This document shows, piece by piece, positions 1 to 41,582 of a stretch of 41,582 bases of DNA. Below the pieces are notes generated by a model. The model saw only the letters and a program-made list of their open reading frames with translations. It was not told the origin of the DNA and made no database searches. The position numbers and the translations under genes were made by a program. The first letter of the stretch is position 1. Each line of letters starts with the position of its first letter. This stretch comes from a virus: positions 1-41,582 of IMG/VR virus record IMGVR_UViG_3300037315_000124. One strand, given 5' to 3'.

Positions 1-18
1 CACAGATCCTGCATACTT
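1..18. repeat. Left copy of 18-bp terminal direct repeat (contig junction)
   Basis: Positions 1-18 are identical to 41564-41581. The copies diverge immediately after: base 19 is G, and the last base of the window is T. The reading frame crosses the joint without a stop. This is the overlap left when a circular or circularly permuted genome is assembled as a linear contig, and position 1 is not a biological end. The final T is probably a read or assembly error. Confidence 0.85.
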
Positions 19-3000
19 GGCGCGTGGCATCGGACGAAACATACCCAGCTTGGCGTTCAGTGTCGGCGTCGGTGCACCAGTCGCAGCTGTTGGCGGCGGC
101 GCATTGGCTGTTGGTGGCGCAGCATTCGCATCCACAGCACTGCTTGAAGGTGGTGCCGCGTACCGAGAAGCGCGACGCCACGGCGCTTCAGACGAGGAAG
201 CAGAGCGCGCCCTGTTCATTACCGGACTAGCAAACGGGGTGCTCGATGCAACACCGATTGGTCGTTTTCTTAGCAGGACACCGCTCGGTCGTCAGTCACT
301 GAGTCGAATCCGAAACCGAATAGCGAGGCAGACGGTGGAGATAGGCAAGCGAGGTGGTGAGCAAGCTGGGTTCGAAGCTGGCACTGAGTCAGTACAAACG
401 GTGGTGTCGAACGCAGTGCAGATGGAGTTTGATGAGAATCGCGCACTGTTGGATGATACAGCGGAAGCAGCGTTCTTTGGCGGCGTGCTCGGTGGTGGCA
501 TGAGTTTTGCTGGAGATGTTGTGAGCAGCGGAGCACGCGGAGTATTCCCTTCGGCGCCGCGCGGCGGTCTTAATGAAGGCATCAACTTTGAGCTCAATGA
601 AACGTTGGAGGACACGCGTGAGGGTGCGACGGCTCGTGTGCCACGCGGTACTGACCTGTTCGGTCTCTACAACGATGAAGCTGCGACGCATAACGCACTC
701 GGGCGTGGCTTCGTATTTTCTGACCACTCTGATGACACAGACACTGACGGCGTGCGGACGCAGACCAGCCGAGACATAACAGTCTACAAACCGAGCAATG
801 ACGAACGAGTGAAAGTACTGAACGGGGCAACGCCGGATGTGCGCACAGAGAACGCACGAGCGCTACTGCGAGAGACCGGGGCAGACGCGCTCGCGTTTCC
901 GGACTTTGGCGGGCAAAACAAGCTCGTATTTCAAAACAGTGACGCGCTCGATAGTTTGCCGCGCAAGCGTATCAATACACGAGCGATTCGTGACGATGTG
1001 ACCAATCAGATACAGCGCGACATTGACCAGTCGCAAACACAAGACGAGTTTGTGCGCACACGTGAAATAGAGGAGACGTTTACCGCCGAAGGGAACCGTA
1101 CAGCATTTACTGAAGAGAATACGGTGCCGGTCGAGCCGGTAAGTCCTGAGCTGCAGCCACTCGTCAACAATGTTGATGTTCTGAAAGTTGGTGTTGTCCG
1201 TGATAATCAAAACGGTCTGCTTGTCGGACGCGTTTCACCAAACGTGTCAAAGGCAGCGGCACGCATTCGAGACTTGGACATTGTTCTCAATCGTGACAAT
1301 GTGCAAAACATCAACCAAAAGCACGGAGCTGTGCCATCTGAGAACCTCGTGCTCACTATCAATAAGCCCGATCATGTTGTGTTCTTCCCAAATGCCGGGA
1401 AGGGCAACAGGGATATGATCAATTTCGTACGTGAACTTCCCGGCGGAGAAAACATCATCGTTGGCGCCATTCGGGTGAACGGCTTTGCGATTGTCACTGC
1501 GTACGAAACGAGTCGACAAAACCTGAGCTCGTTGGTCAATAAAGAAGGCGCTCAGTTGGTGTATACAGATATGCAAAATCCCGACCAACTCAACGTCGGT
1601 CGGGATAAAATTGCAACTGAGCCCTCTGGAGGGACGGCAGCCCCCTCATTGATCACCCCAAGTGAGGTGTCCGAGCAGCGAGCCGTGGTAGCACTTTCTG
1701 CTGTCAGAGAGCTCGATGATTCGAGTATAACAGACGTCAAAGAACTGTCAAGAGAAGCGCTTCGCAACGTCTATCGAAGGGGGGCGCCGCAGGACGTTAC
1801 AAGTGCCACGCAGCGCCGGGTTGAGCAAATTGCGGAGTATGAGCGCTCGACAATTGAAGAACGGTATCAGCGAATACCGGCAGATCTTGCGGTCAATTTC
1901 GATGACAGCACGCCCTTCATCAGTAATCAGGAGGCGGAGCGGGTAGTACGACAATTCTTTGACCCGGACGAAGTTGGTGTTGCGTTCGTCAGCAACATAC
2001 GGACGCCGGAAGGTGCAGAAGCGTTCGGTCGGTACAGCAACAAGATGATTGAGTTTGTGAATAATCCGCACCAAACCACACCGTTCCATGAAAGTGTCCA
2101 CGCCTACCTCAATCTGTTTGTTGATGTGCAGCGCAAGCGAAAGATACTGGACGAGGTGCGGCGCAAAAAGCGAAAACCAAACTGGACTGACGAACAAGCC
2201 GAGGAGCAGCTTGCAGACGACTTTATTCGCTACATACGACGCGAGCGTAAGCCACAGAACTTGATTGGTGAGCTGTTTCGGCGCGTAAAGCGTTTCTTGC
2301 AGCGGTTGCATCCTGCAAGTGCAGAGCGGCTCTTTCAGGACATCATTAGCAGGCGGCGCCCCATGGGCGTACAGGTGCGGACGTTTACTGAAGACATTCA
2401 GCAGGTGCGTCGAGATTTTTATCAGCAACCGGGGCAATTCACGACAAAGCTCTTTCAGCTGCCAGACATGCAGGATAGAGAGACTGTGTCACAGGAGTTT
2501 CTGCGCAACACGCTGCGGTCTAAGAAGAGCAACCTAAAGGGGCGCGAGCAAAGCTTTGTTGAATACGTGCTCGATACGCACTTTCAGAATACGAACAAAA
2601 TAAACACACAAGAGCTGCAAGAGCGTATTTCTGAAGAACTGCTGCCGGTCTCCCTTCAGGAAACTGACAATTTTGCAAAATACGGCATAACAAACCCCGC
2701 GTTTTTGGGTGAAGACTACGCTGAAACGTTCACAATCGATGAACGTGCGGAAGCAAAGACGTTTTTGATCGATACTGGGTATCGCTACATCGACCTACCG
2801 TGGCATAAAGCAACCGGCGTCGGTCATTTTCGCGCCGCTGAGGTGCCGGGGCTGCTCGGTCACTTCCGGATGGCTGTGATGAATGTGCAAGGTAAACGAA
2901 TCGCCAAAGTGCTTGAGATACAGAGTGATCCCATTCAGGACGAAAAGATGGAGCGCATGACAGCGGACGACATGATGAACTATCTACGCACGAAGCGCGA

Positions 3001-6000
3001 TGAGCAAAGCGAGGCCATTGACACTCATCTGCGTAAAATTAATTCGCTGAGAGAAATTGAGAGCACGTACGGCAGGATCGTAGAAAAAGTACGAACCCGT
3101 TACCAAGAAGACCAAGATGCCGACAAGAGACTTGATACCGATTTGGTGAATGAAATCCTAGCGGAGGTGGCGTACTTAGAAACGATACAGCTGACAACTG
3201 ACGATGTGCCTTTGCCAGCAGCCGATGCAGTTAATAGGCCGCTCGTCGAGGCAATCGAGGACATTCTTGATCTGCTACAACTGCACCATCCACAACTACG
3301 TGAATATCGTGCGAACGGTCGTGTCACGTTGTCCGATACTTTGCAAAACCAAATCGGTGACGTACGAATATCGTGGCTGGAAGAGAGAATGACCTCGTTT
3401 GGTGCTCGCGCTGCTGAAAAAGCAAGCACGATAGATAATGGCATAGTCGACCAAAAAAACAGATTGCAGGAATGGGAAGACCTCGTTTCGTATTACGAGA
3501 ATAACCCAGATGAGCTGGCAAAGTGGGATTCGCTCAACCAGCAGTGGATGAAGCTCTCAGGACGGTGGCACGAATTGGCTATCAAGTTTGCCATTCAGCA
3601 AGCAGCAATGAAAGGCGCTGAAGAGGTGCACTTTCCGACTGCATTTACAGTGAGCCGCGCAGAAAATTGGGATGGACAAGGCGACCCGGAAGAAGGGTTC
3701 GGCGGGGAGTATGATGACGCAGATGTACAGTTTGGAAACACAATCGACGCGGACGGTCGTGAATGGACAATTATTGAAGTGAATGATGATAACTCATTCA
3801 GGGCGGTGGCCGCTTTGGATGTAGAAGAGATTTACACGCTCTCAGAGGTGCGCAATGGTCTGTTTATTGATGCAGTAACTGAGTTTGATTCATCTATAGA
3901 TGCCGTTAATGAGTTTTATGACAACATCATGCAGGGTTTTGAAAATGACCCTGATGGTTCTGTGAATGAGGTCAAGGATATTCTGCGTTCTCAGTATCAA
4001 AAACTGGTACAAGACGAACGGAACGAAATTGGAAAATTAGAGGAAGCAATAGAGCGGTCGAAAAGGCAAATCTCCGGTATACGGAATGGAGATGTGACAT
4101 TTATACCCGAGGTCATTTCTAGAAAATACGGCGCTGCGTACGACTCATTCATGGATTTAAAGCGCAATGCTTCATTTTTGGATCCGCTTCCTGAAACCGA
4201 AGGTCGCCCGAGCGAACGAGTGACGCAACGTATGCGTGATTTGAAGTTCGATATCGCGCAGCGTATAGACCAGCAAGTGCAGGTACCGGATTCTATTGCG
4301 CGAGAGGCGCAGAGTGATGAGAGACGGGATCTTGCAGTACGGAGACACCTCAATGCTGATGTTGCAGTCTTTACAAATAAAGAAGAAGCAGACAGGTTCT
4401 ATAACGGGCTCCGTGAGAGCTTTGAGCGACGTCGACAACAAGTAGAAAAACGAAAGCAGTACGTCGATGAAACCGGAACAGAGCTGACGGAAGAAGAACG
4501 CAATGAACAAAAACAGGAGATAGATTTCGAGGCGGCGCTGTTCAATGTCATCGAGCCGGAACAGCATGATTGGTATAAGGGAGCAACCTTTCAGCAGAAC
4601 GCTGAAGAAGGCGGTGCCTACTACGTCTTTTATACAGTGCCAGACACAGCGGGAACAGGAAGGAATCGTGAAAGTGCTGAAGTGCCAGCGCCGGAAGAGC
4701 TTGTACCAACATTTGTTTCTGCAGAAGAAACAGACATCCAAAAGCGGCAAGATGCAATTCAACGCGCACAAAACAAAATAGAGATTCATCAGTCAAACAA
4801 GGAAGCGATAAACTCCATGGAGTATGACAGTGATACAGGTCTGCTCAGACTGCATCCACCCTCAGAAGATGGAATGCAGAAAGACCGAACGGTGGATATT
4901 GACATGACTGATGAAAATGAAATTGCTGAGTCGCAGTACCTCCGTGAATACATTTGGGAAAAAGCCCAAGAAGCTGCCGAGGAGATCGACAGTAATACAG
5001 CCGAATGGTTAGTCGAACAGAGGCACGCCGCGATTGTATATCAAGGGGAAAATGGACTTGGTGAAACGAACCTTGTCGCTGTGAGTAGCAGCGAAGCTGA
5101 TTTCAATGATTTTCCGCCACCTGCCGAAGCGGGTGCACGCAGCGATATCAATGAGCAGCGGCAAGAGTTTGAGCGAACTACAAACCTGAAAGACCCAGAG
5201 CTTCCGTTCCCGGCACTGCGAACAAGAGGTGACTTTAACCCCCAAAAAGCAGCGCTCTTTTACGAAGTGGCTCACCGCAAGTTTTTGCAGAAGCTACGGA
5301 AAGGAAACTATGAAGAAATTGTTGATCACACCGGATACAGCTGGCGTAAAACAGAGATAACGCCTGAAGACAAAGGCGCTATCGAATACTTCCAGTCTCA
5401 CGTCCCTGACGACATCGACCCACGCAACCGTGCGGAGCGTGTAGAACAGGCATACCGTGATGCTGAGCGCTCAGTTATCAGCGAGCTGTCGCAGACGACC
5501 TTTACGCAGGAGACTGCCGAGGTGCAGGAGCAGCTTGGCGTTGACCGAGAGGCATCAGCACTATACCCGGAATGGCTGCCGTCGGCACTTCGCAACCGCG
5601 GTCTCATCGACCGCGTGCTGCAGAAAATTGACAACGGTGAGCAGATGAGTGGCGACCGTCAGCAGCGCCTCTATGACCTCATACAGAACAAGGTCATTGA
5701 GCGAATGAACACGCAACAGGTGAACGAGCAGGTTATTAGTGAGCTTCAGAAGCGCTCACAGCTACGCGAGGAAGTGCAGCGCATCATGCTGCGCGAGGAT
5801 ACGCTGGAGCGCTACAAGCAAATGATTCCGCAAGGACGCACGCGCGGTGCCGAAACCAAGAAAGTCGTGCGTCAAGTAACCGGACAGGTGCGCAATTTAC
5901 GAGACTTCAACGAGCGCATGCGTGCACTCGCTCGTGGATACCGTGAAGGTACACGGTACGGTCGAAATGTGGTCAAACAAGTGCAACGTGAAGCGCTGTC

Positions 6001-9000
6001 GGTCATCGAGGAGCTACCTGCAGAGGAGCAAGGCAAGTTTCGGCGCACAATCGTCAACATACAAACACCTGAGCACCTCGAGAAGAAGCTGCCACAGATA
6101 CAGGAGCGCATTGAGCGAATCGTCGACCAACGTCGAAAGCGTGGGCTCAAAAAGCAAATCCGGAAAGAGCTGAAAAACATCAAGCCCAAGCGAGACCGCA
6201 CCGGGCTCGTGCGGGGCAGGTTTACTGCTGATACACAGAACAAATTGCAACTTATCAAAGACGCGCTCGAGGGTGACCGGCAAGAGGCACTGCAGCAACT
6301 CGAACAAAAGGTAGAGCAAGAGGCACAGAAAGACTCCAAGATTTTCACACAATCTGACATAGAGCAAATGGAAATGCTGCAAATGACAGGAATGAAAGAC
6401 ATGACGGCAGAGCAGCTTGAGTTCACGCTGAAAAATATCCGAAACCTGAAAGAGACCGGTCGTACGCTGCGAGAGCTGCAAGATTTCAACAAGCAGGAAG
6501 AGCTCGACCGACTGCGACAAACGTTTATTGATCGCGTTACCGGCGGCAAAGGTGTGGCGAAAGACATGCAGGGATTGCCACGTCGCGAAAAGGGTGCAGC
6601 AACACTGTTGGAGAACTATGCACCGGGCTTCAAGACGTGGGTTGATGCACACCGCGGTATCGAATTCGTATTTGAGTACATTTCTCGATTCGACAGCGCT
6701 TCCGAGCCGCTGCAGACGCCGTTCCATACGACCCTCATGCGACGTATCCGGGACGCCCGAGATGACCAAAATTCGACCCTCACTGAGTGGGAAAAGACGT
6801 GGCACAGCGCGTTTGCGAACTTCTATGACCTTGAACTGTATGGGCGCGACTACCGCAAGGCAATCAAGCAGCAAGCGCAAGAGGTAGACCTCGGCATCAC
6901 ACCGAAGGGAGCCGACCGAACGCTCAAAATGAACCGCTTTGAGCTTCGTAAGAAGTGGATGGAGATGCAGGATGAGTCGCTGATACCCACCTTTGAAAAC
7001 ATGGGGTGGGATGAGAGCGTGCGGCAAGCGGTCGACGCGGCGATGACTGATGCCGACAAGCGGTTTGCTGAGTGGCAGTTGAAAGAGTTCTACCCACGCT
7101 ACCGCGCACACATCAATCCGACATACCGATACTTTTACGGTGTTGATATGGGCAATATTGAAAACTACTCGCCCATTAAGCGCAGCGGAGGCGGCGAAGA
7201 CGTGCCGCAGCACGTACAGCTTGCACAAGACATTCTACGGAAATCGTCGACGAAAGCTGGCTCGCTCGTCTCACGTGTCAGCAACGTGAAGCCGCTCGAG
7301 TTCGTTGGCGACATGCAGATGATGACGCAACACCTGACTGAAATGGAGCACTTTCGTGCCTACTCAGAGGTTGTGTCAGACATGCGCCGCATTTTCGACG
7401 GTGACCTCATGGAAGCAATCAAGCAAAACCACGGCAATGCAACGGCGAAACAGATCAATAAACTGATTGACGACTTGGCGAGGGATGGCATTGATGCGTC
7501 ACACCGCTACGAGTTTCTTGACAAGGCGCGCAGCTGGTTCGCTGTTGGCGTACTCGGAGCAGATCCGGTCGCTACATTGAAGCAGCTGACGTCGTTCCCG
7601 GTGTACCTCACGGAGATGGATACGTCGACGTTCTTCGGCGGCATCCGTGACTTTTGGATGAACGACATGCGCGAAAAGGCACGTATACTGCTGGACACTG
7701 AATTCATGCGTTCCCGCTACTCAATGGGAGAGTTCGACCGCGACATAAAGATTGCATTCGATCAGGGCTCATCGAATAAGCGCATGGCTGGATTGGAAGG
7801 GTTCCGGCAAATGGTCATGGGTAACATTCGGCTTGGCGACACCGGAGCAATTCTACCCGGCGGATGGGCGAAGTATAAGCAAGAGTTTGAGCGACAGCTC
7901 GGACAAAGTCTGCCGTCAGATGCCGCAAGCATTCGGCAGTTGATAGAAGACAACCCACAGGCGCACAGGGAAGCGGTTAACGCATTTCGGAACACAACAC
8001 TCCGGACGCAGCAGGCGGGCAACGTGGAAGACCTCGGAGACATTCAGCGCGCCGGTTCATTCGGCAACCTGTTCACGTTATTCATGACGACGCCATTGCA
8101 GTATTGGCGCATTGAAGAGAACGCGTTCCGGAACTTAGGTGCGCTCGAAAAAATGGGCGGCAGCGTGCAACGCGGCAAGGTGAGTGACAACCTCAAAGTT
8201 ATTGCCATTATGCACGTCATCATTCCATCGCTGTTCCAGCTCGTTGCAGACGGCTTCGAGTGGCAAGAAGACAGACAGCTGCGCGCGGCGTTGCTCGGTA
8301 GCTTTGGCTACCCACTCATATTCGGCAACATGCTCGACACGATGGCGCGTGTGGCAACTGGCGACGACGTCTTTTCAGACAACCTCATGCCGTCCGGCAT
8401 TTCGCAGTGGGCAGATTTCATGGACGTCGGAAAGAATGTCTACAGCACGCTAGATGACTTCTTTAACGCAACTGTTGATGTCGAGCCCGAGCGACTGTGG
8501 GACACCATCACCGAGGCGGTATCGGTTGGCGGACAAGTAACCGGGCTACCCACCGAGCAGATCGTGACGACCACGAAAGGTGCGTATGAGCTGGCACAGG
8601 GACGCACACAAGATCCACGCGTGCTCTTTTGGAGTGACTATGGGCTCGACCGTGGCGGTGAGTTTGAAATGGCAAATGCGGAACGAGTGCTCACAGAGCA
8701 AGAGCGTCGCCAGTTCGACGCGCAGGTGGCTGATGCACTCGAGGATGGGCGCATCGATGTGGAGAAAGCCAAGCGATTACGTAACAAGATACAGCGTAAT
8801 CAAGCAGACATTAAGGCGCGGCAATACTGGGAGCAAACTCGTGGCTTGCCGCGCACGGAACGACTCCGGCGGTATAACCAGCTTTCAAACGATGTGAAGG
8901 ATGCTGTACGCGATATAGCTGACGAGGAAGCAATAAAGGATGCGCGTGAGTGGTGGCAGCAAACACGCGAATTGCCGAAACAAGAGCGCGTTGCGTCGTT

Positions 9001-9541
9001 CAAAAATCAGAACCCTGCTGTTCGTGAGAAGATTCGAGCGATTGCTGAACGTGAGCGCGAAGAAGAGCGTTTGCTCGAAAAGCTCGGTGCTCGCCCGCAC
9101 GATGAAGAGACATTCCTGCAGAATGTATCCGACCATTTGAAGGCAGTGCAAACAGACCCGATTCAAGCAGCACGGCTGCTGTTCAACGGGGAGCGCATAC
9201 GCCGGGTCGACTCAGGCGCCATCATTGTTGAGCGAATGCCGTTTGCAGCAAGCCAACGTATCCGGCGCGAACGTAACGCTTCTGATGAAGTCGAGCTTGA
9301 CCACATCATCCCGTTGCAGTTGGGTGGCACAAATGATGTAGACAACCTGCGACTCGTCGACAAAGAGCAGCACGAGGAATACACTCAAATCGGCAATATG
9401 CTCGGTGAGATGCTCCGGGATGGGCAGATTGAAGCTGACCGAGCACAAGAGCTCATTCGTGACTACAAAATGGGTGATATGTCTCGAGAGCAGATCATGA
9501 ATGAAATTGCGGAAGTCAGCGCGCAAGTCGAGCAAGACTAG
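2..9541 (+). CDS. Giant polyvalent virion protein, C-terminal 3,174+ residues (gene continues from the right end of the window)
   Basis: The frame is open from base 2 and continues the gene starting at 40863. The joined product is about 3,413 residues. Residue numbers here count from the TTG at 17. Residues 12-44 and about 150-170 are Gly/Ala-rich and hydrophobic. Residues 430-500 (H436, then IVTAYETS) resemble the barnase/EndoU/colicin/RelE-type RNase domains of polyvalent proteins. HESVH at 691-695 is a zinc-metallopeptidase HExxH motif. EIQSD at 967-971 with WHELAIK from 1184 marks the large polyvalent domain common in phage and plasmid giants. Residues 1800-2200 are charged and coiled-coil-like. 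Residues 2300-2390 and the hydrophobic stretches at 2728-2780 resemble late polyvalent domains. A 42-residue tandem repeat starts at 2934. An HNH motif (DHIIPL, then NLRL) starts at 3095. By family analogy it is packaged and enters the cell with the DNA to act against host defences; that role is inferred. It is followed by the lysis genes. Confidence 0.85.
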   Translation, partial: TDPAYLARGIGRNIPSLAFSVGVGAPVAAVGGGALAVGGAAFASTALLEGGAAYREARRHGASDEEAERALFITGLANGVLDATPIGRFLSRTPLGRQSLSRIRNRIARQTVEIGKRGGEQAGFEAGTESVQTVVSNAVQMEFDENRALLDDTAEAAFFGGVLGGGMSFAGDVVSSGARGVFPSAPRGGLNEGINFELNETLEDTREGATARVPRGTDLFGLYNDEAATHNALGRGFVFSDHSDDTDTDGVRTQTSRDITVYKPSNDERVKVLNGATPDVRTENARALLRETGADALAFPDFGGQNKLVFQNSDALDSLPRKRINTRAIRDDVTNQIQRDIDQSQTQDEFVRTREIEETFTAEGNRTAFTEENTVPVEPVSPELQPLVNNVDVLKVGVVRDNQNGLLVGRVSPNVSKAAARIRDLDIVLNRDNVQNINQKHGAVPSENLVLTINKPDHVVFFPNAGKGNRDMINFVRELPGGENIIVGAIRVNGFAIVTAYETSRQNLSSLVNKEGAQLVYTDMQNPDQLNVGRDKIATEPSGGTAAPSLITPSEVSEQRAVVALSAVRELDDSSITDVKELSREALRNVYRRGAPQDVTSATQRRVEQIAEYERSTIEERYQRIPADLAVNFDDSTPFISNQEAERVVRQFFDPDEVGVAFVSNIRTPEGAEAFGRYSNKMIEFVNNPHQTTPFHESVHAYLNLFVDVQRKRKILDEVRRKKRKPNWTDEQAEEQLADDFIRYIRRERKPQNLIGELFRRVKRFLQRLHPASAERLFQDIISRRRPMGVQVRTFTEDIQQVRRDFYQQPGQFTTKLFQLPDMQDRETVSQEFLRNTLRSKKSNLKGREQSFVEYVLDTHFQNTNKINTQELQERISEELLPVSLQETDNFAKYGITNPAFLGEDYAETFTIDERAEAKTFLIDTGYRYIDLPWHKATGVGHFRAAEVPGLLGHFRMAVMNVQGKRIAKVLEIQSDPIQDEKMERMTADDMMNYLRTKRDEQSEAIDTHLRKINSLREIESTYGRIVEKVRTRYQEDQDADKRLDTDLVNEILAEVAYLETIQLTTDDVPLPAADAVNRPLVEAIEDILDLLQLHHPQLREYRANGRVTLSDTLQNQIGDVRISWLEERMTSFGARAAEKASTIDNGIVDQKNRLQEWEDLVSYYENNPDELAKWDSLNQQWMKLSGRWHELAIKFAIQQAAMKGAEEVHFPTAFTVSRAENWDGQGDPEEGFGGEYDDADVQFGNTIDADGREWTIIEVNDDNSFRAVAALDVEEIYTLSEVRNGLFIDAVTEFDSSIDAVNEFYDNIMQGFENDPDGSVNEVKDILRSQYQKLVQDERNEIGKLEEAIERSKRQISGIRNGDVTFIPEVISRKYGAAYDSFMDLKRNASFLDPLPETEGRPSERVTQRMRDLKFDIAQRIDQQVQVPDSIAREAQSDERRDLAVRRHLNADVAVFTNKEEADRFYNGLRESFERRRQQVEKRKQYVDETGTELTEEERNEQKQEIDFEAALFNVIEPEQHDWYKGATFQQNAEEGGAYYVFYTVPDTAGTGRNRESAEVPAPEELVPTFVSAEETDIQKRQDAIQRAQNKIEIHQSNKEAINSMEYDSDTGLLRLHPPSEDGMQKDRTVDIDMTDENEIAESQYLREYIWEKAQEAAEEIDSNTAEWLVEQRHAAIVYQGENGLGETNLVAVSSSEADFNDFPPPAEAGARSDINEQRQEFERTTNLKDPELPFPALRTRGDFNPQKAALFYEVAHRKFLQKLRKGNYEEIVDHTGYSWRKTEITPEDKGAIEYFQSHVPDDIDPRNRAERVEQAYRDAERSVISELSQTTFTQETAEVQEQLGVDREASALYPEWLPSALRNRGLIDRVLQKIDNGEQMSGDRQQRLYDLIQNKVIERMNTQQVNEQVISELQKRSQLREEVQRIMLREDTLERYKQMIPQGRTRGAETKKVVRQVTGQVRNLRDFNERMRALARGYREGTRYGRNVVKQVQREALSVIEELPAEEQGKFRRTIVNIQTPEHLEKKLPQIQERIERIVDQRRKRGLKKQIRKELKNIKPKRDRTGLVRGRFTADTQNKLQLIKDALEGDRQEALQQLEQKVEQEAQKDSKIFTQSDIEQMEMLQMTGMKDMTAEQLEFTLKNIRNLKETGRTLRELQDFNKQEELDRLRQTFIDRVTGGKGVAKDMQGLPRREKGAATLLENYAPGFKTWVDAHRGIEFVFEYISRFDSASEPLQTPFHTTLMRRIRDARDDQNSTLTEWEKTWHSAFANFYDLELYGRDYRKAIKQQAQEVDLGITPKGADRTLKMNRFELRKKWMEMQDESLIPTFENMGWDESVRQAVDAAMTDADKRFAEWQLKEFYPRYRAHINPTYRYFYGVDMGNIENYSPIKRSGGGEDVPQHVQLAQDILRKSSTKAGSLVSRVSNVKPLEFVGDMQMMTQHLTEMEHFRAYSEVVSDMRRIFDGDLMEAIKQNHGNATAKQINKLIDDLARDGIDASHRYEFLDKARSWFAVGVLGADPVATLKQLTSFPVYLTEMDTSTFFGGIRDFWMNDMREKARILLDTEFMRSRYSMGEFDRDIKIAFDQGSSNKRMAGLEGFRQMVMGNIRLGDTGAILPGGWAKYKQEFERQLGQSLPSDAASIRQLIEDNPQAHREAVNAFRNTTLRTQQAGNVEDLGDIQRAGSFGNLFTLFMTTPLQYWRIEENAFRNLGALEKMGGSVQRGKVSDNLKVIAIMHVIIPSLFQLVADGFEWQEDRQLRAALLGSFGYPLIFGNMLDTMARVATGDDVFSDNLMPSGISQWADFMDVGKNVYSTLDDFFNATVDVEPERLWDTITEAVSVGGQVTGLPTEQIVTTTKGAYELAQGRTQDPRVLFWSDYGLDRGGEFEMANAERVLTEQERRQFDAQVADALEDGRIDVEKAKRLRNKIQRNQADIKARQYWEQTRGLPRTERLRRYNQLSNDVKDAVRDIADEEAIKDAREWWQQTRELPKQERVASFKNQNPAVREKIRAIAEREREEERLLEKLGARPHDEETFLQNVSDHLKAVQTDPIQAARLLFNGERIRRVDSGAIIVERMPFAASQRIRRERNASDEVELDHIIPLQLGGTNDVDNLRLVDKEQHEEYTQIGNMLGEMLRDGQIEADRAQELIRDYKMGDMSREQIMNEIAEVSAQVEQD

Positions 9542-9594: not shown

Positions 9595-9843
9595 ATGAAA
9601 CTACAAGCAAAAGCAGTGCCCATTCAAAAGCTGAGCAAACGTGTGTTGTTTCGATTCTTACGCGGCTTCGTAGCCGGTGCCGTTTCCACTGCTGCGACAA
9701 TTTCTGTGACAAACGCGAGCTCATGGGGCGAGCTCGCCAGTGTTCTCAACAACCTGACAATCTCTCTGATTGCAGGAGGCGTTGGCGGTGGGCTTATGGC
9801 ACTGGACAAGTTTTTCAGGGATAAGCGAGCAGGTCGCACATAA
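9595..9843 (+). CDS. Putative holin
   Basis: 82 residues. The basic N-terminus (KLSKRVLFRFLRG) is followed by two hydrophobic segments, about 28-45 and 53-72, separated by a short polar turn. The Gly-rich second segment runs into a charged tail (LDKFFRDKRAGRT). Small two-helix membrane proteins immediately before an endolysin are typical holins, which collect in the inner membrane and open it to release the lysin. The stop overlaps the amidase start by one base (TAATG), so the two are translationally coupled. The start is supported by AAGGTG about 10 bases upstream, one of the few Shine-Dalgarno-like sites in this genome. The assignment rests on topology and neighbourhood, not on a recognised holin family. 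Confidence 0.7.
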   Translation: MKLQAKAVPIQKLSKRVLFRFLRGFVAGAVSTAATISVTNASSWGELASVLNNLTISLIAGGVGGGLMALDKFFRDKRAGRT

Positions 9844-10433
9844 TGGGGTACAAAATCCGACAGCGACATACCGACAAACACTTTGCAGAAGGCAATCCCG
9901 CCTCGGTCATTACGCACGTCGACCTTGGCACATTTGAACGTACAAAATCGGTCATTGATGGAGACAAAAATCGTTCGTACAACTACTACATTCGTCGAGA
10001 GAAGCCAGAAGTGATCGAGTTCGTACCGAAATCATACGGTGCGTGGCACGCCGGGCGCGTCAATAAACCAACAGACCGCGCCCGGCGCTTTTTTGGTGAC
10101 GTGAATCCCAACAAGCAATCAGTCGGCATTTGCTACGAAGGCAAGCCGGTAGACAGCAACGGAAAAGTTACGTGGCAGTGGGACAATGTTGTCGATGGTG
10201 AGCCGCCGACCGACGAGCAGGTGCAGATTGCTACATGGCTCATCGGGCACCTCAAACTAGCGGATGTGCCACTGTTTTCACACAAAGAAATCGCACGGGA
10301 TAAACCGCCGATAGTCAAGCAATTCAATAAAGATATCAAAAAAGAGTTGAAGCGCGCTCGCTCGCGCGGTGACTGCTCATTATCGCAGTTCACCTTCGGT
10401 GAGCTGATTCGTGAGCTAGTGTCGCGCGTGTAG
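9843..10433 (+). CDS. Endolysin: N-acetylmuramoyl-L-alanine amidase (Amidase_2/PGRP type)
   Basis: 196 residues, the usual size for a single-domain phage amidase. The fold shows as a first zinc-ligand strand (ITHVDLGT, H25), YNYYI at 47-50, the AWHAG motif at 67-71, SVGICYEG at 93-100, and FSHKEIARDKPP at 146-156, giving H147 and D153 as the other likely zinc ligands. These enzymes cut the amide bond between N-acetylmuramic acid and L-alanine in peptidoglycan. There is no signal peptide, so release through the holin encoded just upstream is expected. The C-terminal 40 residues are basic and may help wall binding. A separate lytic transglycosylase lies 9 kb away at 18997. Confidence 0.88.
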   Translation: MGYKIRQRHTDKHFAEGNPASVITHVDLGTFERTKSVIDGDKNRSYNYYIRREKPEVIEFVPKSYGAWHAGRVNKPTDRARRFFGDVNPNKQSVGICYEGKPVDSNGKVTWQWDNVVDGEPPTDEQVQIATWLIGHLKLADVPLFSHKEIARDKPPIVKQFNKDIKKELKRARSRGDCSLSQFTFGELIRELVSRV

Positions 10434-12623: not shown

Positions 12624-13589
12624 ATGAGCAGCGAGCAATCACTCCAAATCCAAAACACAGCCAGCATGGACTTCACACCAACCACCGTCATGTTGCTCTA
12701 CGGCGAGGGTGGCGTTGGTAAAACGACCTACGCCACGACTGCCCCCACACCTATTATTGCCGACTGTGAAGGAGGTACGAAGTACCTCGGCTTACAGGGC
12801 ATTTCAGTAGATGTGGCGCCGATCCAGTATTGGCGGCAGATGCGTGACTTTCTCGAGATTGCACAGAGCGGCAAGTACGAGACAGTTGTCATTGACCCGA
12901 TCGACGAGCTGATGCTGAAGCTGAAGCAGCACATGCGTGGCATGCGTGACGCAAAGCTCGTACAGAAAGACGGTTCCCCCACGATGGCTGGCTGGGGCTG
13001 GCTCAAAAAGACGCTCCGGGACTACATCAAGGTGCTCCGCGATACTGGGTTGCATGTCATTATTGTTGCCCACATCGAGGAGGGGCACGACGAAGACCGG
13101 ATGATAAAGCGCCCCAAGGTGGAAACAAAGCTGTCCGATGAATTGGTGAACATCGTCGACATCGTCGGGTACATGACGGTTATCGAGGAAGACGAAGGAC
13201 AGCGCCGGGCGATCATGGTCGACCCCAGCTCAGACAAGTACACAGCAAAAGACCGTACCGGGCAGCTGCCTGCAGTGCTGGAACCTGACTTCCAGTTCAT
13301 CCTGAATACGACCGGTGAGCGTATCGCTGAAGTGATGCAGCAGCGTGAACAAGAGGAGAAAAAAGCAGCGAAAAAGCAGAAAAAGACTGAAGAGAAGAGC
13401 GGTGTCGCGATAGAGGGCGACGTTGCAACGCCGGAAGAAACAGACGAACCGGCAGACGACGAAACGGAGGGACAGCAGACAATCGAAGATGCAGTTGAGG
13501 AGCAGCCCGGTGCGGCAAAGAAGTCAGCATCAAAGCAGCGCTCAAAGGCGACAGCATCACTGAGCAAAGCGCAAACTAAAAGCAAGTAA
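12624..13589 (+). CDS. Sak4-like single-strand annealing ATPase (RecA/RadA-type P-loop)
   Basis: 321 residues. The Walker A motif GEGGVGKTT lies at 27-35, and VVIDPIDEL at 88-96 is the Walker B strand with D91. The core matches phage AAA_24/Sak4 proteins: small RecA-like ATPases that help anneal or exchange single strands together with an SSB. Residues 1-235 carry the ATPase. The tail from 236 is Lys/Glu/Ala-rich, low in complexity and probably disordered. Neighbours support the role: a RecB/Cas4-like nuclease follows after 5 bases and an SSB-like gene comes soon after, together forming a recombination module. No Shine-Dalgarno site precedes the ATG. Confidence 0.85.
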   Translation: MSSEQSLQIQNTASMDFTPTTVMLLYGEGGVGKTTYATTAPTPIIADCEGGTKYLGLQGISVDVAPIQYWRQMRDFLEIAQSGKYETVVIDPIDELMLKLKQHMRGMRDAKLVQKDGSPTMAGWGWLKKTLRDYIKVLRDTGLHVIIVAHIEEGHDEDRMIKRPKVETKLSDELVNIVDIVGYMTVIEEDEGQRRAIMVDPSSDKYTAKDRTGQLPAVLEPDFQFILNTTGERIAEVMQQREQEEKKAAKKQKKTEEKSGVAIEGDVATPEETDEPADDETEGQQTIEDAVEEQPGAAKKSASKQRSKATASLSKAQTKSK

Positions 13590-13594
13590 TAACT

Positions 13595-14455
13595 ATGTCA
13601 CTCTACAAAGAACAGCAATCATTCACACTCTACGGCGGCGATGTGGTTATTGATTTCACACCGCCACACGTATTCAAAAAAGATGGCGTTCGGCTCAAGT
13701 CGCCATCGACATTCACGGGGATGATAGACAAGAGCCCGTTCCTGATTCCGTGGGCGGTTGGTCTCACCTACGACCACCTCTACCAGTACTTGCTCGAGCA
13801 TGAGAACGAACAGCTCAGTACCGAGCAGCTGTTCGAGGTAGTAGACGAAGCGGCTCGCAAGTACAAAGAAAAGCAAGAGCAGGCGAAGGATGTCGGTGAT
13901 ATCGTTCATGAGTACGCAATGCGGTTCGCAATCGCGAGCATCAACGGCGAGGAACTGCCCAAGATACCGAGCAACGGAGATCTGAGCGATTATGAGCTCG
14001 ATGAAGACCAAGAGTACGAAGCGGTATCCGGCATCTACGCGTTCATCGAGTGGTACAACGAGCACGACGTCACATTCCACGACGTTGAGCGTGTGGTGTA
14101 CTCAGCGAAACACGACTACGTCGGCACAGTAGACGTTGCCGCAACCGTTGATGGTGAAGAGCTCATCATCGACTACAAGACCTCGAAACGCATCTATACA
14201 GACCACCTTATACAAGCAGCGCTGTACGCGTACGCGTACGCTGAAGAACGAGAGGTACTGATGCAGAAGGGGTATGAAGTGCAGCCATTCTACGCGCACC
14301 AGTTTGCGCTGCTGCACTTCTCAAAATCTGATGGTGACTTCGAGTTCGTGCGGCCGAGCGAAGAGGTAAAAGAGCGTGCAACAGACGCCGCACTCTCGCT
14401 CGTACCGTTCACGAAGAATTACAAAGAGCTAGATAAAAAATGGAGTAATCAGTAA
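13595..14455 (+). CDS. PD-(D/E)XK exonuclease, Cas4/RecB-like
   Basis: 286 residues. The catalytic set is visible: GDIVHEYA with H105, E165 before VVYS, GTVD with D180, IIDYKTSK with D193 and K195, and the downstream QAALYAYAY with Q207, matching the RecB-type motif order. The family resects DNA ends, usually 5'-3', giving single strands for an annealing protein. It sits directly between Sak4 and the SSB-like gene, so it should process phage replication intermediates. No Cys cluster for an iron-sulphur centre is visible, which argues for a RecB-like rather than a true Cas4 enzyme. Confidence 0.85.
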   Translation: MSLYKEQQSFTLYGGDVVIDFTPPHVFKKDGVRLKSPSTFTGMIDKSPFLIPWAVGLTYDHLYQYLLEHENEQLSTEQLFEVVDEAARKYKEKQEQAKDVGDIVHEYAMRFAIASINGEELPKIPSNGDLSDYELDEDQEYEAVSGIYAFIEWYNEHDVTFHDVERVVYSAKHDYVGTVDVAATVDGEELIIDYKTSKRIYTDHLIQAALYAYAYAEEREVLMQKGYEVQPFYAHQFALLHFSKSDGDFEFVRPSEEVKERATDAALSLVPFTKNYKELDKKWSNQ

Positions 14456-14461
14456 ATACCT

Positions 14462-14695
14462 ATGTCACAACACGAATCATTCAAACCACGGCGTGAACTC
14501 ATGTACGTCAACATTGAAATTAAGCCAGCGTCCAACCAGACGCATCAGCGTGGCTTCTACAGAGACCAGCGGAGCTTTTCGTTCCCGATGTCTCGAAGCG
14601 AAGCCGCTGGCGTGATGGATCAGGTTGAAGGCATTGTTGGGCAAATGGAGACGGACATGAAAAAGCGCCTCGGAACCAATTACCAGAGTAATTAA
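14462..14695 (+). CDS. Hypothetical protein in the recombination block, 77 aa
   Basis: I recognise no family. It begins with a short basic part, followed by strand-like sequence (ELMYVNIEIKP), an aromatic stretch (RGFYRDQRSFSFPM) and a C-terminal helix (EAAGVMDQVEGIVGQMETDMKKRL). It is a soluble, helix-ending small protein. It lies 6 bases after the nuclease and 9 before the SSB-like gene, so an accessory role in strand handling is likely from position only. Confidence 0.55.
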   Translation: MSQHESFKPRRELMYVNIEIKPASNQTHQRGFYRDQRSFSFPMSRSEAAGVMDQVEGIVGQMETDMKKRLGTNYQSN

Positions 14696-14704
14696 CAGTC
14701 AATT

Positions 14705-15034
14705 ATGCTGCATAAGGTTGCAACGCTGTGGAGGCGCACCTCGAAAAATGACAAACAGTACTTTACGGGCGTTCTCCACGACATCACTGGTGATATTCAG
14801 GTCGTCGGGTTCTACAACAACAAGCAAAACGACAAGCAGCCGGACATTCAGCTGTTCCGGGACGACGGGCGCGATGACAACCGAAACAAGTCGCAGCAGG
14901 GCGACACGAGAGAGCAAGACTGGGGCGGATTCAATGGAAGCGCGCCCGATGCGGACGCTGATGTGTCAGAACCACGGGACGACAAGATCGAGTACCCGCA
15001 GGAGGACATCAACCCTGAAGATATTCCGTTCTAA
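14705..15034 (+). CDS. SSB-like single-stranded DNA-binding protein with DIPF tail
   Basis: 109 residues. The first 50 form a compact strand-rich domain with basic and aromatic residues (LWRRTSKNDKQYFTG, IQVVGFYNNKQ, DIQLF), as in small phage SSB-type proteins and DUF736-like folds. A long acidic, Gly/Asp-rich tail follows and ends NPEDIPF. That tip closely resembles the DDDIPF tip of bacterial SSB, which docks host repair and replication proteins. Together with the adjacent Sak4 and exonuclease, an SSB role is the best reading. The fold itself is not certain from sequence alone. Confidence 0.6.
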   Translation: MLHKVATLWRRTSKNDKQYFTGVLHDITGDIQVVGFYNNKQNDKQPDIQLFRDDGRDDNRNKSQQGDTREQDWGGFNGSAPDADADVSEPRDDKIEYPQEDINPEDIPF

Positions 15035-15048
15035 CTTAGCACCTCATC

Positions 15049-15849
15049 ATGCGGCACAAACGAATGGTCTCACTGGACATCATGGATTCTGACGCATTTC
15101 TCGACCTCCCGCTCTCTGCACAAATGCTGTACATCCATCTGCTGATGCGGGCTGATGACGACGGGGTGGTGTCGAATCCTCGGACAATCAGACGCATGGT
15201 GGGTGCCAGTGACGACGACGTCCGTGAGCTGACACACAAGAAGTTCGTACTGTTCTTTGATTCGTACGGCGTCTGCGTCATCAAACATTGGTGGATGCAC
15301 CAGACGATACGTTCCGAGCGATACAGCCCGAGCCCCTACCAAGATGTAGTCGCGCAGTTGAGCCGTAAAGAGAACAGGGCGTACACTTGTCACCCAGATG
15401 TCACCCAGACGGGTGACACTGTCACCCACCATGACTCCCAATATAAGAGAAGAGAAGAGAAAGAGAACACTTGCAGTGGGCGTCGTTCGCAGGAACGAAC
15501 GACACAGGCAAAGAAACAGTCATCAAGTAAGAAGTCCGGCGGTCGTATGCAGAAAAAGAAATATGATGACGCACGCAAGGAAGACCTCGGTGACTTCTGC
15601 GAACGGATGCGGCAGAGCGAAACGCGACGGCTGCACATTCTTGCCGACTACGCGGAAGAGCGCGGCACGAACTTCACAACGGTTGGCCAGTGGGAAGCGT
15701 TCATCGATCGCAACATACGAGCCGCCCGGACGCTGGAGCCCTACGACGATGAGCAGATATCGCGTGCGATGAAGCGAGTGAAGAAAGCGATAGAGCAGGG
15801 TTACCTCACCAAATGGACATTAGAAACAGTCACAAAATACCTCGACTAA
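15049..15849 (+). CDS. Replisome organizer / replication initiator
   Basis: 266 residues. The N-terminal 105 residues (RMVSLDIMDSDAFLDLP, RADDDGVVSNPRTIRRM, GASDDDVREL, VIKHWWMHQTIR) are the winged-helix domain of phage replisome organizers, best known in Firmicutes phages. There it binds origin repeats and, with a DnaD/DnaC-like partner, loads the host helicase. Residues 110-165 form a Lys/Ser/Gln-rich linker, and 180-266 a helical C-terminal domain. The linker DNA carries ordered GTCACCC repeats (15388-15427), as expected if the protein binds inside its own gene. It is the last gene of the recombination/replication block. Confidence 0.85.
   Translation: MRHKRMVSLDIMDSDAFLDLPLSAQMLYIHLLMRADDDGVVSNPRTIRRMVGASDDDVRELTHKKFVLFFDSYGVCVIKHWWMHQTIRSERYSPSPYQDVVAQLSRKENRAYTCHPDVTQTGDTVTHHDSQYKRREEKENTCSGRRSQERTTQAKKQSSSKKSGGRMQKKKYDDARKEDLGDFCERMRQSETRRLHILADYAEERGTNFTTVGQWEAFIDRNIRAARTLEPYDDEQISRAMKRVKKAIEQGYLTKWTLETVTKYLD
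15388..15503. other. Putative replication origin: iteron array, purine tract and inverted repeat
   Basis: GTCACCC occurs at 15389, 15400 and 15421, with its complement GGGTGAC at 15411, so starts are spaced 11, 11 and 10 bp, about one helical turn. The first two copies form a perfect 11-bp tandem repeat, and the last two form a 17-bp odd-centred palindrome at 15411-15427. An A/G-only run lies at about 15444-15467, and a perfect 8-bp inverted repeat at 15482-15489 and 15496-15503 follows. This order of iterons, easily melted tract and inverted repeat inside the initiator gene is like lambda-type origins. Confidence 0.6.
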
Positions 15850-21360: not shown

Positions 21361-21648
21361 ATGGACAGTGGTTTTGAGACATTGCAGGCGTTCGAGAATC
21401 AAGAGGTGTGTGTCGTTGTGATACATAAACCGACGAATCAGTTCACGGCGAAAGCGCGTATTCCAATGGAGCGCGTTTCTGATTATGTACAGCAGTCAGT
21501 CGAGGTGTACTCGCAAGAGGCAACAGTGCCGTACGACGAATTCGTCGTGACGATCGTGAACCAATTTCAAGAGTACGCATGCGTACATTCACTCACTAAC
21601 TTTTTCGACCAGTATGGAGACAGCCACAACGCAGACAATCGCGAATAG
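21361..21648 (+). CDS. Hypothetical protein, 95 aa
   Basis: I recognise no family. The sequence alternates strands and helices (EVCVVVIHKPTNQFTAKARIP, VSDYVQQSVEVYSQEA, EFVVTIVNQFQEYACVHSLTNFF), so it is a compact soluble domain. It begins 1 base after the small terminase and overlaps the following fusion gene by 35 bases, suggesting coupled translation. Confidence 0.55.
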   Translation: MDSGFETLQAFENQEVCVVVIHKPTNQFTAKARIPMERVSDYVQQSVEVYSQEATVPYDEFVVTIVNQFQEYACVHSLTNFFDQYGDSHNADNRE

Positions 21649-39042: not shown

Positions 39043-39282
39043 ATGGCTACACAGAAGAGAAACCGCCGACTATCTGCCGAAGAGCGGCTGAACAGGGCGC
39101 TCGCACAAGATGACTTGATTTGGAACAAGCGTTACAGAATTGGGAGGCACATGACGATATCATTTCCGAACCAGAAAACGGTGCCTCTGCTGGGGCGGTT
39201 TGCAATTTGGATACTGAACAAGCTAGGTGCAGAGACAGTGATCAATTATTACGATCAAGACGCATATGGCGAAAAACAATAA
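39043..39282 (+). CDS. Hypothetical protein, 79 aa
   Basis: The basic N-terminal helix (QKRNRRLSAEERLNRALAQDD) is followed by a moderately hydrophobic segment (VPLLGRFAIWILNKLGAETVI) that could be amphipathic or a short membrane contact. There is no family match. Position before the internal virion proteins suggests a small ejected or internal protein. It overlaps the next gene by 17 bases. The preceding 57-base gap has a small ATGCA/TGCAT hairpin and no clear promoter. Confidence 0.5.
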   Translation: MATQKRNRRLSAEERLNRALAQDDLIWNKRYRIGRHMTISFPNQKTVPLLGRFAIWILNKLGAETVINYYDQDAYGEKQ

Positions 39283-40861
39283 GCAGCGACAAAAAGATTT
39301 GAATGTGAACGATGAGACCCTGCAGGCGGTCATGCAGACCAACAATCTGAGTCGCACTAAGGCGCTTGATGCATTTCAAACAGCACAGAAGAAAAAGAAA
39401 AACCTCGCTGACGCAATTCAGGAAGTGAAGGGCGGCGGCACACGCCAGCAAGGAAGCGGCACACAGACAACAGACACACCGAGTGCGGGCAATGCGAACG
39501 CCCCGGACGACCCCAACCGGGTCACGGACGAGGCATCAGCAGAGGGCTTCATCAATCGTGAGCAGAGCGAAGAAATTGCACGAGACCAAACGCCACCGAC
39601 GCGTGACGGTGAGCAGGCGCAGACACAGAGCGCGGTGAGTTCATTGGTAAATACGACGCAAGATGCGCCCGAGCAACCAGACCTAACTGAGCGCTTCAAG
39701 GAACTACGCGAAGATGCCGGTCTCGAAAACTTAGAGACACGATTGTCGACGCTGCGCTCTGAAAAGCAGGAAATGCAGGCGCAGCTTCGTGAGCGTGCAC
39801 GTGATGCGCGGGGAGAAGCGGTGCCGACGAACGTCATCGAGGGGCGCATTTCGCAGATGGAGTTTCAGAATCAGCAGCGAATCAACCAAATTAACCGCGA
39901 GATAAATCATGTAGCAACGCAAATCGAGCAAAAAACACAGACGGTCGAGCGCCTCATGCAGTACGAGCAAACTGAATATGAGAACGCGGTTGACCGATTT
40001 GATGCCAATTTCAACCGGGCGATGAACATCGTGCAGGTGATGCAAGACCAGCGCCGTCTCGAAATGGCGAAAGATCAAGAAGAGCGACAGCGGCTGCAGG
40101 AAGTGAAAGCGGTTTATCAAGCAACGCAGAACTCGTTGGCACAGGCGGGTGTTACGTATGGCGACCTTTCGCAATCGCAGCAATCAATGATTGAACAGCA
40201 AGAACTGCAGCTTGGTATTCCTCGTGGAACAATGGCAGCTGTGCTTAACAATAAGACCGGCGGTGAGGTCACACGATTTCGTACTAGTTTTGATGACCAA
40301 GGACGTGAGTTTGCGTGGGGTCTTGTGGAGCAACCGGACGGCACTGCAGAAATCGTTAATTTTGGGTACACAGGAGCACGTGATGCAGACGCAGAGGAAG
40401 CAGCCCGGCAAGAGCAAATGATTGATGTACCGGAGTTTGAAGACTTTGTGCAGCAAACAAAGGGCAGCGAACAAGCAGAGCAAATCATTCAGCGTGCTGT
40501 GGAGGACGAAAGCATCACAAACCCACTTGCACAGTTTTCACCCGATCGCCGCGGAGCCGCGACAAAGTCAACCGACCCCGCACAGCTGACTGAAGAGCAG
40601 CGAGACAATATTCTTCGTACGTACCTGCGACCGGTATACGAAACTGCGAAGCGGCAGGCACAGGAGATTAACAAGCAACTGCAGCCAAATGCCGGTGAGT
40701 GGTTCGACCGAAACGAGTTGAATGAGATCCAGCAGAAGAGCGGCAAACCAATGTCAGAAATCCGCTCAATGAGTATTGATGAGGCAAACAAGATCCTCTC
40801 TGAAGAGGAAGACTCGACTTCAGGTGGCGGTAATACAATAGAAGCACCGGAAAACATCTAG
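39266..40861 (+). CDS. Internal virion / ejection protein, coiled coil, 531 aa
   Basis: Residues 1-60 are basic; 60-145 are low-complexity Gln/Thr/Asp-rich; 145-300 are long coiled coil (LETRLSTLRSEKQEMQAQLR, QINREINHVATQIEQKTQTVE); 310-380 are beta-rich (VTRFRTSFDDQGREFAWGL). Residues 416-434 (SITNPLAQFSPDRRGAATK) recur almost exactly in the N-terminus of the giant protein encoded next. A long coiled-coil protein before a giant protein at the end of the virion genes is typical of the ejectosome proteins of short-tailed phages. The shared motif could be a docking or processing site. It ends 1 base before the giant gene. Confidence 0.65.
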   Translation: MAKNNKQRQKDLNVNDETLQAVMQTNNLSRTKALDAFQTAQKKKKNLADAIQEVKGGGTRQQGSGTQTTDTPSAGNANAPDDPNRVTDEASAEGFINREQSEEIARDQTPPTRDGEQAQTQSAVSSLVNTTQDAPEQPDLTERFKELREDAGLENLETRLSTLRSEKQEMQAQLRERARDARGEAVPTNVIEGRISQMEFQNQQRINQINREINHVATQIEQKTQTVERLMQYEQTEYENAVDRFDANFNRAMNIVQVMQDQRRLEMAKDQEERQRLQEVKAVYQATQNSLAQAGVTYGDLSQSQQSMIEQQELQLGIPRGTMAAVLNNKTGGEVTRFRTSFDDQGREFAWGLVEQPDGTAEIVNFGYTGARDADAEEAARQEQMIDVPEFEDFVQQTKGSEQAEQIIQRAVEDESITNPLAQFSPDRRGAATKSTDPAQLTEEQRDNILRTYLRPVYETAKRQAQEINKQLQPNAGEWFDRNELNEIQQKSGKPMSEIRSMSIDEANKILSEEEDSTSGGGNTIEAPENI

Positions 40862-40862
40862 T

Positions 40863-41582
40863 ATGGCGTTCGAGCAGTTTCAAGACATTGCATTCGGAGA
40901 CCGTGGCGCCGGCAGTGGTGGCAGTACGTCACAGCTTCAGCAGCGTGATGCGCCCGCACAGACAGGGGGCGTTGATGGACGCACTGAGCCAAACGACTTC
41001 ACCACCACAGTGCTCGACAACCTTGAGATTGCTGATGACTTCAGCTCAGGTGAGTCCGCTGATGCGGAGCCGCAATCAGCTCAAGTAACGGGCGGCACAG
41101 AAACTGAGGCAATCACCAATCCACTTGCACAGTTCTCGCCGGAGCGGCGCGGCGCTGCAACAAAGGTGCGCCTCAACAGCTTTACTCCCAAACGTGGGTT
41201 GCAAATTGACTCAACCTCAGAAGCGCTCACGGCGACACAAGCGGGTTCCACGCTGCCCGGAACTGAGACTGACGTGAAAGGCACCGTCGAAATGTCTCGT
41301 GATGTGGCAAAGGTAGGTGTGGCGCTCGGGAAGGTTCCGTTTACAGAAGAAGGCAGAACCGAACTCTCGCGTGGTGTCACTGAGGACATACTCGGCACGT
41401 CCTCATACATTCACAGCGCGCTCTCTGAGGGTGCTGAACAGATTGGCTTTGAAGAAATCAGCCGTTCACTTGAAAACACAGCAGACCGCGATGCGGATTT
41501 GCGGCGCACCTTCTCTCGTGTGAACGCGCCAGTCAGTGATGCAGAGTCGCTGCAGGAAGGAATCACAGATCCTGCATACTTT
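40863..41582 (+). CDS. Giant polyvalent virion protein, N-terminal 239 residues (continues at position 2)
   Basis: The ATG at 40863 has AGT before it. The frame is open to the end of the window and continues in frame at the left end after the 18-bp overlap. The merged protein is about 3,413 residues. This part is soluble and low in complexity: a Gly/Ser/Gln-rich start, then AITNPLAQFSPERRGAATK at residues 83-101, nearly identical to residues 416-434 of the preceding protein, then a Thr/Ser-rich stretch and helical sequence (VAKVGVALGKVPF, SEGAEQIGFEEISRSLE). The final codon reads TTT here but TTG at the left end, presumably a contig-end error. Confidence 0.82.
   Translation, partial: MAFEQFQDIAFGDRGAGSGGSTSQLQQRDAPAQTGGVDGRTEPNDFTTTVLDNLEIADDFSSGESADAEPQSAQVTGGTETEAITNPLAQFSPERRGAATKVRLNSFTPKRGLQIDSTSEALTATQAGSTLPGTETDVKGTVEMSRDVAKVGVALGKVPFTEEGRTELSRGVTEDILGTSSYIHSALSEGAEQIGFEEISRSLENTADRDADLRRTFSRVNAPVSDAESLQEGITDPAYF
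41564..41581. repeat. Right copy of 18-bp terminal direct repeat
   Basis: Identical to positions 1-18. Joining the two copies gives a circle of about 41,563 bp with the giant gene intact across the joint. The repeat is most simply an assembler overlap; a true short terminal redundancy is less likely because it lies inside a coding region. Confidence 0.85.

Follow-up and report, generated by a model that had tools for sequence, protein, structure and literature searches.

A probable polyvalent ejection protein on the plan of the N4 virion RNA polymerase in a small podovirus

Experiments have identified the virion RNA polymerases (vRNAPs) of N4-like phages as ejection proteins (PMC12633501, PMC10925440). 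The isolated N-terminal domain of the N4 polymerase, gp50, enters nanodiscs, and a membrane-spanning region is predicted at about residues 224-278 (PMC12633501). In N4, the genes that correspond to those discussed here are ordered portal, capsid, gp53, gp52, gp51 and the vRNAP gene gp50. The polyvalent proteins of phages occur with late virion genes, and one reading of the zincin domains found in them is that such a domain might process its own protein (PMC5512222). Two ideas that are usually kept apart meet in the giant protein described here: the injected N4 polymerase seen as one component of the machinery of DNA ejection, and polyvalent proteins seen as bundles of effectors for early infection.

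The giant gene and its neighbourhood

We analysed a single virus record of 41,582 bases (IMG/VR IMGVR_UViG_3300037315_000124), referred to below as the window. Its ends overlap by 18 nucleotides, bases 1-18 being the same as 41564-41581, and the best reading of the sequence is a closed genome some 41,563 bases long. One frame without a stop, open at its 5' end and 3,179 amino acids long, covers positions 2-9541, and an ORF that begins with the ATG at 40863 and is open at the end of the record joins it in frame through the 18-nucleotide overlap. The joined gene (40863-41563 plus 1-9541) encodes 3,413 amino acids and occupies 10,242 of 41,563 bases (24.6%), which bears out the statement in a preliminary description of this DNA that one gene fills about a quarter of the genome. 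Residues are numbered by the window frame (window-ORF) unless stated otherwise. The preliminary description counted from a TTG at position 17, which makes its numbers 5 lower than those of the window-ORF and 239 lower than those of the full protein; in that numbering, the HESVH, EIQSD and HNH motifs lie where it placed them. The coordinates of all features are collected in Table 1.

Counted from the terminase, the gene order is large terminase (24430), SU10-type portal (26701), N4-type major capsid protein (30055), tail and fibre genes, a gene for a 531-aa protein, the giant gene and a gene for an Amidase_2 protein (9843-10433). Terminase, portal, capsid and tail are all encoded upstream of the giant, on its own strand. 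The capsid protein matches N4 gp56 (9e-6), so the N4 capsid named in the preliminary description is right. The giant takes the place that gp50 has in N4, as the last gene of the virion block. Bbp10 of phage BPP-1 and most of the other giants that share its C-terminal module (see below) are encoded directly behind a gene for 290-720 amino acids.

The ATG of the giant lies two bases past the stop of the gene for the 531-aa protein, which had no match in Pfam or PHROG. The two proteins have an 18-residue peptide in common (consensus ITNPLAQFSP(D/E)RRGAATK). Its two copies differ in ten codons, of which nine are synonymous and one is conservative, which indicates that selection has preserved the peptide as the DNA diverged. 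No such peptide pair was present in the other giants examined, no further copy was present in the compared loci and a degenerate DNA pattern for the peptide retrieved none from viral contigs. The simplest reading is that the peptide would serve as a docking, packaging or cleavage signal common to two co-ejected proteins.

As scans of the main window proteins turned up no RNA polymerase, early transcription would use the host polymerase or another factor. A DNA polymerase was not found among the window proteins scanned either, and the phage may therefore replicate with host enzymes. Positions 12624-15849 encode a Sak4-like annealing protein, an exonuclease and a DnaD-like helicase loader, and a 451-aa protein with a weak C-terminal match to glycosyltransferase-2 (6.8e-5) is encoded just upstream of the terminase region (21614-22969).

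Table 1. Features of the giant gene and of the gene upstream of it (positions in the window)
Feature	Position	Strand	Residues	Landmarks	Basis
Upstream 531-aa protein, candidate second ejection protein (gp51/gp15-like position)	39266..40861	+			position and shared peptide only
18-aa peptide, copy in the 531-aa protein, ITNPLAQFSPDRRGAATK	40514..40567	+	417-434 of the 531-aa protein		copy of the giant's peptide
Giant gene, 5' part	40863..41582	+	full-protein 1-234 (up to 41563)	then 18-nt overlap and one base	ATG ORF, in-frame junction
18-aa peptide, copy in the giant, ITNPLAQFSPERRGAATK	41112..41165	+	full-protein 84-101		17/18 residues identical to the copy at 40514
Giant gene, main part	1..9541	+	full-protein 235-3413; window-ORF 1-3179		stop-free frame
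N-terminal domain, homologous by sequence to the N4 vRNAP N-terminus (N4 gp50 about 276-434)	2..544	+	window-ORF 1-181		PHROG 2206, blastp, hhalign
RNase-like stretch of the preliminary description (unproven)	1154..1591	+	window-ORF 385-530	H441 (1322-1324), IVTAYETS (1490-1513)	by eye
Zincin metallopeptidase-like domain	2012..2290	+	window-ORF 671-763	HESVH (2087-2101), third ligand Glu735 (2204-2206)	profile
EIQSD domain, divergent	2825..4036	+	window-ORF 942-1345	EIQSD (2915-2929), SGRWHELAIK block (about 3560-3600), third-block Y-D and K (about 3917-4036)	profile
Charged, presumably helical stretch, common to L001, L018, L019 and partly L020	5873..6709	+			sequence comparison
Conserved all-helical C-terminal module	6710..8671	+	window-ORF 2237-2890		relatives, PHROG 9880, model, BFVD
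Hydrophobic segment inside the C-terminal module, LKVIAIMHVIIPSLFQLVADGF	8192..8257	+			hydropathy 1.96 over 19 residues
C-terminal HNH tail	8942..9514	+	window-ORF 2981-3171	core (9281-9358), H3101 (9302-9304), N3115 (9344-9346), H3124 (9371-9373)	Pfam, relatives

Domains of the giant protein

Judged by sequence comparison, the N-terminal domain of the giant is homologous to the N-terminus of the N4 vRNAP. It matched PHROG 2206, 'virion RNA polymerase', through the N-terminus only (1.6e-7, profile positions 220-422 of 3406), and blastp aligned it with N4 gp50 at 30% over 171 columns (5e-6). In hhalign comparisons with nine N4-like vRNAP N-termini, the window alone reached a score of 48.2 (91.3%) and the window together with the giant of Ruegeria phage 45A6 a score of 61.6 (95.7%); 200 shuffled sequences gave scores of at most 23.0 (at most 3.6%) and the reversed sequence 16.3. 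When the nine N-termini were made into a simple HMMER profile, the window was not significant after bias correction (1.3 bits). Composition thus matters, and it is the profile-profile and PHROG comparisons that carry the link to N4. No polymerase domain is present: the best blastp match to residues 998-2103 of N4 gp50 has an E value of only 0.16. Most other giants with the C-terminal module have no detectable N4-type N-terminus. The giant of the cultured phage 45A6 (L034:2147-13885; 3,912 amino acids) has the same N-terminal domain, with one region that matches DNA methyltransferase PHROGs and another that matches a portal-labelled PHROG, and is a second case of cargo exchange on this N-terminus.

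The preliminary description saw an RNase-like fold in H436 (window-ORF H441) and the motif IVTAYETS. The sequence of this stretch is compatible with the PBECR signature, a His in the first helix and a Ser/Thr in strand 4 (PMC5512222), and in a structural model of low confidence (pLDDT about 30-50) H441 lies at the end of a helix and TAYE in a strand. Segment scans against Pfam, which covered all PBECR models, and against PHROG gave no match, a search of the phage's own genome for PBECR2, PBECR3 and PBECR4 was negative and no homologue was found among 3,535 ORFs of the compared loci. The PBECR reading was set aside as unproven on these grounds. We also rejected an ART-like resemblance seen by eye at about residues 230-330, for which there was no ART-PolyVal match in the phage's own genome and no homologue. 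A search for LPD38 gave no match, and its positive control likewise gave no signal. Single-sequence scans of viral contigs with the PBECR-like, zincin and EIQSD parts found no relatives; the PBECR-like and zincin stretch had one weak match in 398 genomes, and it fell in the zincin part.

The HESVH motif, proposed earlier as a metallopeptidase, belongs to what is by sequence a real domain. A profile built from eight other proteins (giants including N4 gp50, with the window left out) scored the window at 37.8 bits, compared with at most 11.5 bits for 200 sequences in which HESVH was kept and the flanks were shuffled. The His, Glu and His of HExxH and the downstream Glu735 are invariant. Both HExxH and Glu735 fall within predicted helices (pLDDT about 56-80). 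This agrees with how Iyer et al. define the metallopeptidase of polyvalent proteins, in which one helix bears HExxH and a later one a conserved Glu (PMC5512222). HExxH is present in most of the giants, usually right behind a Ser/Thr pair.

The EIQSD element of the giant is a divergent member of a widespread domain family. A profile of the family scored the window at 20.3 bits, and 300 shuffles that preserved the motif but not its flanks reached at most 9.0 bits, so the element noted in the preliminary description stands. The window keeps 21 of 42 conserved columns and is also found directly by phmmer (1e-5); it lacks the W-H that follows EIQSD and the TTG..QA.RY block. A DNA pattern for EIQSDWHQ was found in at least 120 viral contigs (IMG/VR, L035-L154) and lay inside an ORF in 120 of 120, with ORF lengths of 345-3429 amino acids among the 80 matches listed. 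The domain spans roughly 300 residues and is organised in the blocks H..N..AHxR..EIQSDWHQ, APFK.sWHELA.KR, TTG..QA.RY and FYDKILP. About a dozen polar residues are near-invariant; the columns that barely vary are H, R, E, Q, S, D, Q, W, Y and K.

Six members of the EIQSD family scanned against Pfam gave no match, a sequence search of the PDB found no relative and the text of Iyer et al. 2017 (PMC5512222) does not mention the domain. PHROG 7348, labelled 'endolysin', is a giant that contains it. In two of the contigs (L035 and L101), EIQSD, zincin and the C-terminal module occur in one chain with the order of zincin and EIQSD reversed relative to the window; the modules have been reshuffled. 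Because the EIQSD domain is common in viral metagenomes and has no Pfam model, it is a specific place to look for a new early-infection enzyme.

The HNH element claimed earlier is likewise a real domain by sequence. Pfam HNH scored 23.0 bits in a segment scan (9e-5), above the cut-off of 21.4, and 18.7 bits, below this cut-off, in a scan of the whole protein. The tail is 38-42% identical to the C-termini of two otherwise unrelated giants (L010 and L011) and has a remoter likeness to stand-alone HNH proteins of 118-125 amino acids, with H-N-H in register. The window keeps H-N-H. The last His is replaced by Trp in L010 and L011, which suggests that the block in these two giants binds instead of cutting.

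The C-terminal module was found in Bbp10, vir555 and loci L001-L004, L006, L007, L018-L021, L035 and L101, and it matches PHROG 9880 (2e-14). Its AlphaFold model is nearly all helical, with a mean pLDDT of 57.7. Structure matches in BFVD reached 3.5e-16 and carried labels such as crystallin-motif protein (the RefSeq label of Bbp10), ART-PolyVal and large polyvalent protein. A Foldseek search of the PDB returned nothing at E < 1. In VIA-align, a chain of the phiM1 ejectosome (8vb2_A) ranked second, with a Z of 5.4 and an rmsd of 7.0 Å, values that are within noise for a helical model. Comparison by hhalign with T7 gp16 and N4 C2 gave no signal, equal to the shuffled control. Sequence searches of the PDB with the module, the N-terminus and EIQSD returned one weak match, to a designed helical repeat (0.0039), and otherwise nothing usable.

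Membrane segments had been proposed in this part of the protein. One hydrophobic helix is indeed present, with a P and an FQ conserved in relatives; its Kyte-Doolittle value of 1.96 makes it only a borderline candidate. A second, weaker hydrophobic stretch lies at full-protein residues 251-271 (Kyte-Doolittle 1.69).

Two giants with the C-terminal module contain other domains. A 3,185-aa giant (L020:2414-11971), whose contig was binned as a Bacteroidales genome, has an inorganic pyrophosphatase domain (InPase, 1e-56) and LPD23. A 1,495-aa giant (L018:8138-12625) has a DnaJ domain (1.7e-9), which as cargo might target chaperones.

Likely role of the giant and alternative readings

Taken together, these data suggest that the giant is probably a polyvalent ejection protein on the N4-vRNAP plan in which the polymerase has been replaced by other cargo. 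The domain homologies, the gene slot, the absence of the polymerase and the reshuffling of modules among giants were observed directly; from them we infer packaging, ejection, membrane insertion, all catalytic activities and any anti-defence role. The giant has at least two domains of unlike predicted activity (zincin, HNH and EIQSD) and lies beside late virion genes, as a polyvalent protein would. Its combination of domains is surprising and is a variant of the described polyvalent theme, not a one-off. The earlier proposal of an injected polyvalent protein therefore holds for a polyvalent-type giant in the virion block, in the slot of the N4 vRNAP and Bbp10, and is not supported for the RNase element.

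Because the giant resembles N4's injected polymerase with its cargo swapped, it is probably carried in the particle and sent into the bacterium ahead of the DNA. We propose that it would be made late, at the same time as the remaining virion proteins, and then enclosed in the head. When the tail opens, it would leave through the narrow channel as a string of loosely linked domains. The N-terminal domain may then engage the inner membrane, and the helical C-terminal module may help to bring DNA into the cytoplasm. There, the zincin, EIQSD and HNH domains would act during the first minutes of infection. The zincin might cleave either the chain of the giant, freeing these domains, or host proteins, and the HNH domain may cut DNA.

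The strongest rival, which we nevertheless consider unlikely, is that the giant is a dedicated anti-defence polyvalent protein directed against restriction, CRISPR or toxin systems, with ejection a by-product of its packaging. Several unlike enzyme-type domains in one chain are in the polyvalent style (PMC5512222), and the exchange of modules among relatives and the presence of HNH and zincin domains would suit such a protein. However, none of the modules detected is a known anti-restriction domain, nothing points directly to a target, the RNase element is unsupported and the zincin could as well process the giant itself. An anti-defence role is possible; the claim that this protein is the main anti-defence system of the phage goes beyond these results.

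Database labels of some relatives suggest instead an external structural giant of the tail or a lysin ('endolysin' for PHROG 7348 and 'lysin' for the Bbp10-like OANV1 gp16), and genes for tail-fibre-like proteins and an amidase are nearby. We regard this as improbable, because lysozyme, transglycosylase and other cell-wall enzyme domains were not found in the giant, which has an N4-type N-terminal domain, and the phage encodes its Amidase_2 protein separately. Least probable is a degraded relic of an N4-type vRNAP that lost its catalytic domain and gained insertions of no current use, which would explain an N4-type N-terminus and an HExxH domain without a polymerase but not a stop-free run of 3,413 codons, related giants that are likewise long and open, the retention of the zinc ligands, H-N-H and many EIQSD columns, or a shared 18-aa peptide under purifying selection.

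A broader hypothesis can be put forward, to which we give somewhat less than even chances. The N4-vRNAP ejection scaffold may be an interchangeable carrier in small podoviruses, keeping an N-terminus that engages the membrane and a helical C-terminus for translocation and exchanging the polymerase for other enzymes, EIQSD with its enzyme-like invariant residues among them, that are delivered at the start of infection, with the 18-residue peptide as a docking or packaging signal. Were the N4-type N-terminus and the helical C-terminal module such a carrier, position could serve to predict the effector cargo of many uncultured phages.

Comparison with known systems

The giant resembles internal virion proteins of the T7 gp16 type in occupying the slot of the largest ejection protein and in having a C-terminal part that is helical and contains a hydrophobic segment close to the end (PMC8954989). 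In contrast to T7 gp16, it has no transglycosylase domain, and no sequence link was found between the two. With the phage polyvalent proteins (Iyer et al. 2017, PMC5512222) it shares large size, unlike enzyme-type domains, a position near virion genes and a zincin, although it matches no Pfam polyvalent-domain model. The phage proteins that bear EIQSDWHQ (the PHROG 7348 giant and many smaller ORFs) have in common with it the EIQSD, W-H-E-L-A-x-K and Y-D blocks.

Bbp10 of BPP-1 and the other giants of PHROG 9880 share the helical C-terminal module, the zincin and the gene slot; Bbp10 has LPD22 and PBECR1, whereas EIQSD and HNH were not found in it. Compared with the N4-like vRNAPs (Schitoviridae gp50; PMC12633501), the giant lacks the polymerase domain, has EIQSD and HNH in addition, carries its zincin before rather than after the place of the missing polymerase domain and ends in a C-terminal module that is not detectably related to theirs. 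What it has in common with these polymerases is a length of about 3,500 residues, a position as the last gene of the virion block, a homologous N-terminal domain, an HExxH zincin (C1) that falls within one profile and a helical C-terminal part.
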